NCBI GenBank assembly: GCA_937899065.1
Contig: CALBPG010000134.1
Coordinates: 1-35,316 of the forward strand
Direction: 5' to 3'
Origin: an uncultured Allomuricauda sp.
Lineage (GTDB): Bacteria; Bacteroidota; Bacteroidia; Flavobacteriales; Flavobacteriaceae
DNA: 35,316 nucleotides
Shown here: in pieces, positions 30,517-33,749 of the stretch
Numbering within the stretch: position 1 is the first letter of the stretch
How the letters are laid out: each line of letters starts with the position of its first letter
Program-made: the position numbers and the translations under genes
Notes under the pieces: generated by a model
What the model saw: only the letters and a program-made list of their open reading frames with translations
Database searches by the model: none
What the model was told of the DNA's origin: nothing

Positions 30517-30543
30517 AAAAAGCCGCTTTAAGCGGCTTTTTTT
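30517..30543 (+). terminator. Strong intrinsic terminator after secDF
   Basis: AAAAAGCCGC and GCGGCTTTTT pair perfectly over a short loop and run into T7. It can also act leftward on the kinase transcript that ends at 30624. Confidence 0.92.
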
Positions 30544-30623
30544 ATTTGGGTGGTAGAAGGTTCACGCGATGCAGTATTTCAGTAAATAAGTCTTCAACAA
30601 TATTGCATAATAATTCCATAATC

Positions 30624-32534
30624 TTAGTCTTGAAGCATTGGTAGCTGCAGCAATACTACATTGTATCCTTCAGCGTTGTCCTTTTTGTCTTTATATTTTA
30701 GAAAGTCAGTTGATTTGCGTTTAAAGTACTTCTGTGCCCTTTCCAATAGAATCTGAAGACCCAACGAGCGATGCTCACTGTTTTTGCCAACAAAACCAAT
30801 TCCATTGTCCTTTACTGCACACATCAAATTCCCGTTGAGGCCTTTGCTGAATTCGACGATGATGTTTCCTTTTTCCTTAAGAGAAGACACACCATGCTTT
30901 ATAGCGTTTTCTACTAGTGGTTGTACCATCATTGGAGGAATTCTGTTGGATTCAATATCTAAATCTTCCGGTAGAATTATTTTAAAGCTAAATGGAACAA
31001 CTGTTTGCTGGTAAATTTCCATATAATACTCCAAGGTTTTGATTTCATCTCCCATTTCCACAAAGTCTTCTCTGGAATTCTGCAAGTTCATCCGAAGTAG
31101 TTTTCCAAGTGCCGAAGTCAATTTTTGTGCTTTTTCCGGCCTATCACCAATCATGGATATCACGTTTTGCAAGACGTTAAAGATGAAGTGGGGATTCATT
31201 TGAGACAAGAGCAATCGCTGTTCCAAGGATATTTTTTGCAGTTTTCCCCTTAAACTCCTCCATTGAAAAATACCCAATAGAAATATTACCATCAAAATTG
31301 CTATTACAATACTTAAGGAGAGTTGCGACCTTTTTTTGGCGTAAGCAAGGTCCACATTCGCTTTTTCTGTTTCCAAACGTTGAATGGTTTCTACCTTTTC
31401 CTTCGTCTCATATTCGACGGTAAGATCTTCGATTTTGGATTCCAATTCCTTTTTATGAAAATCCTTGAGAACCGTTTCCTTTGATTTCAAATGAGAATTA
31501 GCCTCCTTATAATTTCCAAGTTTTTCATGCGCTTCCACCAGATACGAATAGGCATCGAGAATCATATCCCGTTCATCCGTATTTCGAGACATGGAATTCA
31601 AAAATCCAATTGCAGACTGCGCACTTTTGATAGCTTCTTGATAATCTTTCTCTTGAAGGCTCACGTAGGCTTTAACCACCAGAATGGATACTTCAATGGT
31701 GGTAGGCTCATAAGGCCCCTCAAAAGAAGGTCTATTCCGTTCGAATGCTTCCAGGGATTTTTTATAATACATTAAAGCAGAATCTTGATGCTGTACTTTA
31801 TAAGAAGCGCCTAAATAAGCATAGGCAAAAGGTAGGTTGTTTTGAAAGCCATTGGAGCGTAACGCAGATTGTATCTCTTTTCTAAAATAATAAGAAGAAG
31901 AATCAGGAATGTTCAAATAGTTTTTGGAATACACAACTCCCAATCGCAAAGTAACAGCAGATTTATTTCTAGTAGAGGCCATATACGAACTGTCCCCTGC
32001 CACCTTCATCAACAATTCTGCAGCTTTTCTATAACTACCTAGCGAAAGATGACATCTAGCCACTAAGTTCAACAAATACGGTTTCCATCTTTGGTCTGGA
32101 TACTTCTTTTCATAAAACAAAGCACTGTTGCCATGTTTCAAAGACTTTTCAGGGTCTTTTTGGGTGGAGTAGATTCTGCCCAACATATAGTTGGCTTCTT
32201 TCATACTCTTGTCGTCCAAATAGTATTTTAACTTCAAATTATTATGATGGTCAATCGCCTCATGGTAATAGATGGCGGCGGAATCCAGTTGGTTTTTCAC
32301 GAAATAAGAGGTTCCCAATTTGGTCAGGTATTCCGCTTTTCCATATAGAGTGCTGTCGCGCTTCAGTAGCATTTTCAGATGCTTCAAGTTTTTGCGGTGA
32401 TTAGGATTTCTGTACGAAAGGCAATCCTTGGCAAAAAGATCTATTCCTAATTGCGAAGTTTTATTGAACTGACTATTAGCTAGCTGGGATATTCCTACTA
32501 GAAAAATGAATATTCTTAACTTGGATGTTGGCAT
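30624..32534 (-). CDS. Sensor histidine kinase with an extracytoplasmic TPR sensor region
   Basis: 636 residues. A signal-like start (MPTSKLRIFIFLVGISQLANSQ) leads into about 340 residues of TPR-like helical pairs (YLTKLGTSYFVKNQLDSAAIYY, AYLGASYKVQHQDSALMYY). A coiled-coil stretch rich in Glu/Lys follows, then one membrane helix (SLSIVIAILMVIFLLGIF, about 400-425). The cytoplasmic part is a LytS-type kinase with phospho-acceptor MNPHFIFNVLQN and HATPase motifs MVQPLVENAIKHGVS and KDNGIGF. The TPR region should face the periplasm. The likely partner is the divergent LytTR regulator, whose start is only 18 bp away. A small double-glycine peptide gene lies on the other side of that regulator, so a peptide ligand is conceivable (inference). 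Confidence 0.93.
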   Translation of the reverse strand: MPTSKLRIFIFLVGISQLANSQFNKTSQLGIDLFAKDCLSYRNPNHRKNLKHLKMLLKRDSTLYGKAEYLTKLGTSYFVKNQLDSAAIYYHEAIDHHNNLKLKYYLDDKSMKEANYMLGRIYSTQKDPEKSLKHGNSALFYEKKYPDQRWKPYLLNLVARCHLSLGSYRKAAELLMKVAGDSSYMASTRNKSAVTLRLGVVYSKNYLNIPDSSSYYFRKEIQSALRSNGFQNNLPFAYAYLGASYKVQHQDSALMYYKKSLEAFERNRPSFEGPYEPTTIEVSILVVKAYVSLQEKDYQEAIKSAQSAIGFLNSMSRNTDERDMILDAYSYLVEAHEKLGNYKEANSHLKSKETVLKDFHKKELESKIEDLTVEYETKEKVETIQRLETEKANVDLAYAKKRSQLSLSIVIAILMVIFLLGIFQWRSLRGKLQKISLEQRLLLSQMNPHFIFNVLQNVISMIGDRPEKAQKLTSALGKLLRMNLQNSREDFVEMGDEIKTLEYYMEIYQQTVVPFSFKIILPEDLDIESNRIPPMMVQPLVENAIKHGVSSLKEKGNIIVEFSKGLNGNLMCAVKDNGIGFVGKNSEHRSLGLQILLERAQKYFKRKSTDFLKYKDKKDNAEGYNVVLLQLPMLQD

Positions 32535-32552
32535 TTAATCCCAATTCGTAAG

Positions 32553-33302
32553 ATGAACCTTAAAAAGGTACGTACTTTAATCGTAGAAGATGACAAGGAA
32601 ACACTGGAATATCTCAAAAAACTAGTTCGTCAGCACAACCAATTGGAGTTAGTCGCTGAAGCTTCTGACAAGTGCATGGCACTGCAGAAATTCAGGTTAG
32701 CGCAGCCCGATTTGGTATTGTTGGATATTGAACTAGGACAAGAGAATGCTTTTGACCTTCTGGACGAAATCGAGACAAAATCATTTCATCTCATATTTGT
32801 GACAGGACATTCTGAATATTTGCTACAGGCCCTGGAGTACTATGCCTTTTATTTTTTGATTAAGCCATTTGACAAACAAAAGTTCGACGGGATAATCGAT
32901 GCCTTCGTGCAAAAAGCAAATCTTTTCTATGACCAGTCAAAACTAGAGTACTTGTCAAGCTTTGTTAGAAATCAGGATTCTCGGTTCTTTTTGAATACAG
33001 GACTTGATTTCTTGGCCATAGATCTCAATGATGTGCTATACTGCAATTCAGAGGGTAATTTCACCAAGTTTTACTTTAAGGAAGGTCGGCCTGAACTGGG
33101 TTCCAATAATCTCAAGTTCTATGAAAACCTACTACGGAGAAGAGGTTTTTTCCGAGCTAACCGCTTTCATCTCATCAACATTACGAATATTGAAGCCATC
33201 CTGAAAAAAGAAACCCTCGTCATGAAAGATGGCACCAAAATCAGTATTTCCAATAGGAATAAGGCAAGACTAAAAGAAATAATCGATGTTTTGAATGGGT
33301 AG
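32553..33302 (+). CDS. LytTR-family response regulator
   Basis: 249 residues. The receiver has acidic pair DD (13-14), phospho-acceptor Asp58 in LVLLDIELGQ and Lys104 in LIKPFD. The C-terminal LytTR domain (about 145-249) shows LNDVLYCNSEGNFTKFYF and GFFRANRFHLINITNIEAILK. It is the probable partner of the TPR-containing kinase. Unlike the pair at 3256-5033, kinase and regulator here are head to head rather than coupled. The 18-bp gap cannot hold two full promoters, so each promoter must reach into the other gene. It is convergent with the small peptide gene at 33412-33585, a possible target. Regulation of that gene is inference. Confidence 0.93.
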   Translation: MNLKKVRTLIVEDDKETLEYLKKLVRQHNQLELVAEASDKCMALQKFRLAQPDLVLLDIELGQENAFDLLDEIETKSFHLIFVTGHSEYLLQALEYYAFYFLIKPFDKQKFDGIIDAFVQKANLFYDQSKLEYLSSFVRNQDSRFFLNTGLDFLAIDLNDVLYCNSEGNFTKFYFKEGRPELGSNNLKFYENLLRRRGFFRANRFHLINITNIEAILKKETLVMKDGTKISISNRNKARLKEIIDVLNG

Positions 33303-33322
33303 TACGGGCAGCACTTTTTTGA

Positions 33323-33363
33323 TAAAAAAAGCAATCCCTTGACATTTAACATTCAAGGGATTG
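33323..33363 (-). terminator. Intrinsic terminator of the small peptide gene
   Basis: Read on the minus strand, CAATCCCTTGA and TCAAGGGATTG form a perfect 11-bp stem with a 10-nt loop, directly followed by GC and T7. The T-run is only on the minus strand side, so it terminates leftward transcription. The peptide gene 48 bp upstream is the only candidate. This is independent support that the peptide gene is transcribed. Confidence 0.88.
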
Positions 33364-33411
33364 TATTGCGCAATTTTGAAGAATCTTCAGTTAATGAGAT
33401 TAATTAATCCA

Positions 33412-33585
33412 TTAAAGGTAGCAACATTGAGATTTGGTTGTTGGAACGGGTGAACCGGTACCTCCACAATTTACCGAACCTGTCGCACCTCTATCAGTGC
33501 TTGAACCACCTCTCAACTTTTCCTGGTGAAAATTTGAAACTACTTTCTTATTCAATGCTAAACCAATTTTTTTACCTTTTTTCAT
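33412..33585 (-). CDS. Double-glycine leader peptide, class I lanthipeptide-like RiPP precursor
   Basis: 57 codons, below the cutoff of the supplied ORF track. The leader MKKGKKIGLALNKKVVSNF followed by HQEKLRGG matches the Bacteroidota pattern of Lys-rich start, LxLNKK helix and GG cleavage site at 26-27. The 30-residue core after GG has five Ser, five Thr and all three Cys (40, 54, 55), ending SQCCYL, which suits Ser/Thr dehydration and thioether ring formation. No LanB/LanC-type modification enzyme or ABC peptidase-exporter is in the window, so modification is unproven. Its own terminator follows 48 bp after the TAA. No strong SD is present, and the upstream region is A/T-rich with a poor -7 match (TAGTATTG at 33622-33629). 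The alternative is an unmodified GG-type signal or bacteriocin-like peptide. Confidence 0.8.
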   Translation of the reverse strand: MKKGKKIGLALNKKVVSNFHQEKLRGGSSTDRGATGSVNCGGTGSPVPTTKSQCCYL

Positions 33586-33749
33586 TTTACTTGATTTTTA
33601 ATATTTGCTATTTAAGCTAGGCAATACTACATCATCAAGCAATAGAGTTTACATAAGGATAGCGAAAAAACTTACTAGTAGTGTGTAATCAGTTATGAAC
33701 GTTAAATCTTCTTTTTAATTGATTTCTTGGCGGTTAAAGGTGGTCTTTT

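Follow-up and report, generated by a model that had tools for sequence, protein, structure and literature searches.

The window, a stretch of 35,316 nucleotides from an uncultured Allomuricauda sp., a marine flavobacterium, carries a TPR sensor histidine kinase, a LytTR response regulator and a small double-glycine (GG) peptide gene. Together they probably represent a transferred module that unites regulation with the precursor of a secreted GG-peptide: kinase and LytTR regulator would constitute a two-component system dedicated to this pathway and accompanying genes for GG-peptide production and export, and the adjacent gene would be an orphan class I lanthipeptide precursor. Most likely, the pair serves as the dedicated regulator of a pathway for secreted GG-peptides, its sensor being a periplasmic TPR superhelix. 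The match of the peptide leader, the presence of the modifying enzymes in the same genome, equivalent pairs inside the clusters of relatives, the linkage within one kinase clade, a family survey and a single insertion site all argue for this reading.

Table 1. Position and strand of the features discussed, with the basis for each; positions are those of the window unless a locus is named.
Feature	Position	Strand	Basis
Inserted segment between SecDF and TfoX-like gene	30542..33749	.	SecDF-TfoX contiguous in six sister genomes; GC
TPR sensor histidine kinase, 636 aa (periplasmic TPR, one TM, His_kinase/HATPase)	30624..32534	-	Pfam, conserved residues, kinase clade
Single transmembrane helix of kinase, about residues 405-427	31254..31322	-	Read from sequence (QLSLSIVIAILMVIFLLGIFQW)
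Predicted periplasmic TPR superhelix of kinase, residues 20-405	31320..32477	-	AlphaFold2, Foldseek
LytTR response regulator, 249 aa, divergent from kinase	32553..33302	+	Pfam Response_reg and LytTR
Intrinsic terminator of peptide gene	33323..33363	-	11-bp stem followed by seven T
Class I lanthipeptide-type precursor, 57 aa	33412..33585	-	Homology to precursors beside LanB/LanC
Upstream region of peptide gene	33586..33749	-	No LytTR direct repeat, no RNA model match
RNA element instances (outside the window)	L203:8562-8625, L204:7823-7886, L207:6093-6156, L148:15066-15129, L053:4067-4130, L028:2554-2617, G000:C145:23968-24030

All three genes lie where the first-pass annotation had placed them (Table 1), as confirmed by Pfam domains and, for the peptide, by paralogues. 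Pfam analysis of the kinase detected TPR repeats (TPR_12, 36.9 bits; cut-off 30.1) and a His_kinase domain (PF06580, 70.4 bits; cut-off 25.2); the HATPase match (21.3) stayed under its cut-off of 26.4, the N and G boxes being nevertheless conserved, as is H449 in the motif NPHFIFN. Because the N-terminus is a signal peptide, ahead of the TPR region, and a single transmembrane helix follows, both read off the sequence, the TPR region is placed in the periplasm, in agreement with the original proposal. AlphaFold2 predicted this region to be a superhelix (mean pLDDT 85.7, pTM 0.78), for which Foldseek returned TPR proteins including the peptide receptors NprR, Rap and RapH at a TMq of about 0.55, and generic TPR proteins (CTPR, LGN, OGT) matched as well or better by E-value. 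The predicted structure shows a fold of the peptide-binding type, a fold that does not identify the ligand. The regulator, with Response_reg (61.9 bits) and LytTR (54.6 bits) domains both above cut-off, is indeed head to head with the kinase, the two start codons being 18 bp apart, and with a PF06580 kinase carrying the conserved His, a receiver and a LytTR domain the pair has the composition of a LytTR two-component system.

Peptide gene and regulator gene point towards each other, and the former encodes a double-glycine leader and has a terminator of its own, all as first described; the terminator, with a predicted fold of -15.7 kcal/mol for 33318-33372(-), was missed by a consensus terminator scan because of the loop limit of 8 in that scan. 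The precursor consists of the leader MKKGKKIGLALNKKVVSNFHQEKLRGG, with its double-glycine end, and the core SSTDRGATGSVNCGGTGSPVPTTKSQCCYL, in which 3 Cys and 10 Ser/Thr occur among 30 residues. The peptide belongs to a known class and is no unclassified pheromone. Aligned with 13 precursors, its leader (LALNKKVVSNF...RGG) fits the LxLxKx5L-GG type that Walker et al. (2020, PMC7268733) reported for those class I LanA precursors in Bacteroidetes that have C39 partners, the last motif position being F as in several relatives. The leader residues MKKxKKIGLxLNKK are common to precursors of three Allomuricauda genomes. A Pfam search of the peptide gave no match, and against NCBIfam NF038153 (lant_leader_L1a; cut-off 22) it scored 12.9 bits, which counts against the module reading; one copy on contig C18 of the same genome (26.1) and one copy of Allomuricauda sp. 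PL24a (23.8) passed, and the remaining relatives tested fell below the cut-off, though several of them adjoin LanB/LanC.

The peptide gene has three paralogues elsewhere in its genome (E 1e-7 to 3e-5) and homologues in two further genomes of the genus among those searched, which indicates that it is more than a chance reading frame. Two of these paralogues are located on C18 beside LanC, a split LanB, HlyD and a C39-peptidase ABC exporter; the third, on contig C118, is itself an orphan. As own-genome paralogues thus stand beside LanB/LanC machinery and one of them exceeds the NF038153 cut-off, the class of the peptide is settled: it is, by homology, an orphan precursor of the class I lanthipeptide type and of the Bacteroidota GG-leader kind. 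No LanB or LanC lies next to it in the window, and since it is an orphan, its maturation, if any, must come in trans from the enzymes of C18. The core of the C118 orphan is almost identical to that of one precursor of the PL24a cluster (GPGTTSCLSC.CEV; L007:637-801, L052:6262-6423), which suggests that parts of a cluster were transferred or lost.

The first-pass annotation had described the link between the three genes as one of position only and had proposed to look for it in related genomes, where it was found. In Allomuricauda sp. PL24a (G005, NZ_JANQIH010000284.1, a 17,734-bp contig) the orthologous pair, whose regulator is 48% identical to that of the window, is flanked by four precursors on one side and LanB/LanC on the other, and C39-ABC and HlyD come next. 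A second complete cluster, that of Maribacter algarum RZ26, has the order LanC, LanB (in two parts), LytTR, kinase, precursor, HlyD, C39-ABC. In G184 and G016 the pair is beside GG-peptide exporters of another type, adjoining C39-ABC, HlyD, a VKOR-thioredoxin protein and a Cys-rich GG peptide. In a tree of 82 kinases, the window kinase groups with these four, its nearest relatives, in a single clade (SH-aLRT 88; 97 when the unlinked G178 is added), and all five pairs of the clade adjoin GG-peptide genes, two in complete lanthipeptide clusters, two in C39/VKOR/GG-peptide clusters and one in the window. The clade therefore spans both VKOR/C39 and lanthipeptide cluster types. Linkage, the clade and the common insertion site described below together take the association beyond mere position.

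The linked label was clustered on this tree (6 changes versus a shuffled mean of 11.4, with none of 500 shuffles as low), which describes clustering and not an unbiased rate, as the linked set was partly picked by viewing neighbourhoods. Linked kinases also occur elsewhere on the tree, namely on contig C145 of the same genome, in three further Flavobacteriaceae, in Pedobacter and in Chitinophaga, suggesting that GG-peptide clusters may have recruited such kinases repeatedly; the distant kinases (L149-L155) had no GG-peptide linkage and served as outgroup. A family survey seeded on LanB (PF14028, 299 genomes) and C39 (PF03412, 120 genomes), not on the kinase, detected a kinase/LytTR pair within 3 kb of 5 of the 14 C39+VKOR clusters, as opposed to none of the 24 C39 loci that lack both VKOR and LanB (Fisher p 0.004); the five positives include G184 and the window's own genome (C145). 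None of the 25 LanB loci had a pair within this distance, one having it 5 kb off, a result that speaks against the module reading. Such pairs are thus chiefly an optional companion of GG-peptide clusters of the VKOR/C39 kind, and lanthipeptide clusters have them only now and then.

In six genomes of sister species, SecDF is followed by the TfoX-like gene within about 50 bp, and among the genomes read the kinase-regulator-peptide unit occupies this site only in the window. The inserted segment has a GC content of 0.375 versus 0.42 in the flanks and bears at its left edge (30541-30570) a short copy of the 3' end of the TfoX-like gene (ATTTGGGTGGTA), suggesting that insertion may have occurred by integration at this end. 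In six other genomes a HEAT-repeat gene separates SecDF from the TfoX-like gene; across Allomuricauda the interval is thus variable, being empty or holding a HEAT-repeat-like gene or the three-gene module (window, L157-L170). The nearest kinase, that of G184 (76% identical and sister to the window kinase), has no lanthipeptide gene beside it, and DNA homology to G184 (77%) coincides with the kinase/regulator pair, breaking off at either end of it and leaving the precursor outside. Owing to this, one insertion site is no proof of one event, and the precursor may have come to the pair in an event of its own. Together with the side of the precursor relative to the pair, which varies among loci, these observations count against the module reading.

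The same holds for the upstream region of the peptide gene, where the first-pass annotation had proposed to look for LytTR binding. No LytTR-like direct repeat was found there, 496 of 500 shuffles doing as well, and direct control of the peptide gene by the regulator is therefore unproven. Of the peptide-signalling module as first conceived, the linkage of kinase and regulator to GG-peptide genes was upheld and an upstream LytTR repeat was not supported. A promoter-like pattern, GTTAAT-N-TTGTAAG, at some lanthipeptide genes was rejected, since it had been derived from these same few sequences and also occurred at unrelated places.

From these data we infer the following course of events. LanB and LanC of the C18 cluster would modify the window precursor in trans, and the C39-ABC exporter of C18 would cut it after the GG and export the peptide with HlyD. 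The periplasmic TPR superhelix would then detect the mature peptide, or an envelope state caused by it, upon which the kinase would phosphorylate the LytTR regulator and the phosphorylated regulator would adjust transcription of precursor genes as a feedback or cell-density control. A bolder version, namely a Bacteroidota peptide-pheromone circuit in which the periplasmic TPR kinase directly recognises a secreted, C39-cleaved lanthipeptide, with LytTR feedback on the precursor genes and a movable kinase-regulator-precursor cassette, can be put forward only tentatively; it is just as conceivable that the pair senses damage which the peptide does to the envelope.

Alternatively, the pair might serve as a sensor for envelope stress or immunity, responding to damage from lanthipeptides or bacteriocins of the cell itself or of others and controlling protective genes, with the peptide as an antimicrobial product and not a ligand. 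This appears unlikely, even though a single kinase clade that accompanies both lanthipeptides and the chemically different Cys-rich peptides of the VKOR type would be odd for a sequence-specific receptor; the window module has no immunity-type effector gene, and the inserted unit carries a precursor instead. Still less probable is that the pair regulates GG-peptide genes elsewhere, in the C18 lanthipeptide or the C145 C39/VKOR cluster, the adjacent precursor being a minor or decaying passenger. The genome does possess both cluster types and the sister pair of G184 adjoins a C39/VKOR cluster, but C145 has its own TPR-kinase/LytTR pair, and the precursor has an intact frame, a terminator and a conserved leader.

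TPR-kinase/LytTR pairs are common in Bacteroidota, at least 574 relatives having been confirmed among at least 589 pattern-matching stretches, and C39 genes were near only 5 of 80 such loci; orphan precursors without a pair exist on C118 and on C308 of G005, and the nearest kinase lacks a lanthipeptide neighbour. All this would suit chance neighbours, with the pair serving something else and an orphan precursor having landed alongside, but the GG-peptide linkage throughout the kinase clade and the one insertion site shared by the three genes make such a coincidence very improbable.

The second GG-peptide system of the genome (L174, G000:C145:15000-30625) comprises HlyD, C39-ABC, a Cys-rich GG peptide, a VKOR-thioredoxin-like protein and its own divergent LytTR regulator and TPR kinase, with genes nearby that look like glycosyltransferases. 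In C39/VKOR clusters, whose peptides have the leader MKNLxxLGKxLNKxEQKxINGG, the GG-peptide genes are preceded at about 20-40 nt by a conserved RNA element of roughly 60 nt with a hairpin, a second hairpin (GACAC...GTGTC) and an H-type pseudoknot between the loop of the latter and a downstream stretch. In 24 sequences, 90% of the pair cells were standard and 30 cells changed on both sides, versus a shuffled mean of 11.7; shifting the partners by 1-3 columns lowered pairing to 32-49%. GG-peptide genes follow 22 of 25 pattern matches, and a model of the 24 sequences that left out the pseudoknot detected the element in additional Allomuricauda genomes, nearly all readable instances being followed by a GG-peptide start. 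No Rfam family matches the element, which, judged by its covariation, is an undescribed pseudoknot upstream of VKOR-type GG-peptide genes. The element occurs neither in the window nor in the lanthipeptide loci tested, and an Rfam search of the window gave no match.

Class I lanthipeptides of Bacteroidota (NF038153; PMC7268733) share with the present system the leader motif, the GG end, a Cys/Ser/Thr core and, in the genome, split LanB, LanC, C39-ABC and HlyD; the window precursor differs in being an orphan away from LanB/LanC, under the NF038153 cut-off and beside a two-component system. Nearly a quarter of the class I LanCs in a large genome survey came from Bacteroidetes, and pinensins alone had by 2020 been isolated from this phylum (PMC7268733). 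In the accessible part of a study of RiPP clusters in another order, the Bacteroidales, one cluster had HK/RR genes and two others TPR genes, for which the authors suggested a role after pheromone binding, and no TPR-kinase/LytTR pair was found there (PMC10352776). Our literature search yielded no publication joining Bacteroidota lanthipeptides with LytTR regulation and no account of how Bacteroidota lanthipeptide clusters are controlled. The GG-peptide-linked kinase clade names a regulator to delete or activate for switching on silent clusters, and makes periplasmic TPR peptide sensing testable and a peptide-linked control circuit a concrete idea, beyond a guess from position.

In lantibiotic autoregulation by NisK/NisR, kinase and regulator likewise travel with the lanthipeptide genes, but NisR is an OmpR-type regulator, whereas here a LytTR regulator and a periplasmic TPR sensor occur in a Gram-negative phylum; a pair inside the biosynthetic cluster, as for NisRK, is seen in PL24a and Maribacter algarum, and in the window only a precursor adjoins the pair. 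The peptide quorum-sensing systems AgrC/AgrA and ComD/ComE also use LytTR regulators, and Com/Blp also GG-type secreted peptides, but their receptors are polytopic membrane proteins and the window kinase crosses the membrane once and carries a periplasmic TPR region. With the RRNPP quorum sensors Rap and NprR the kinase shares the TPR fold known for peptide binding; these, however, are cytosolic receptors of a re-imported peptide, whereas the TPR region of the window kinase follows a signal peptide, is extracytoplasmic and is fused to a histidine kinase.
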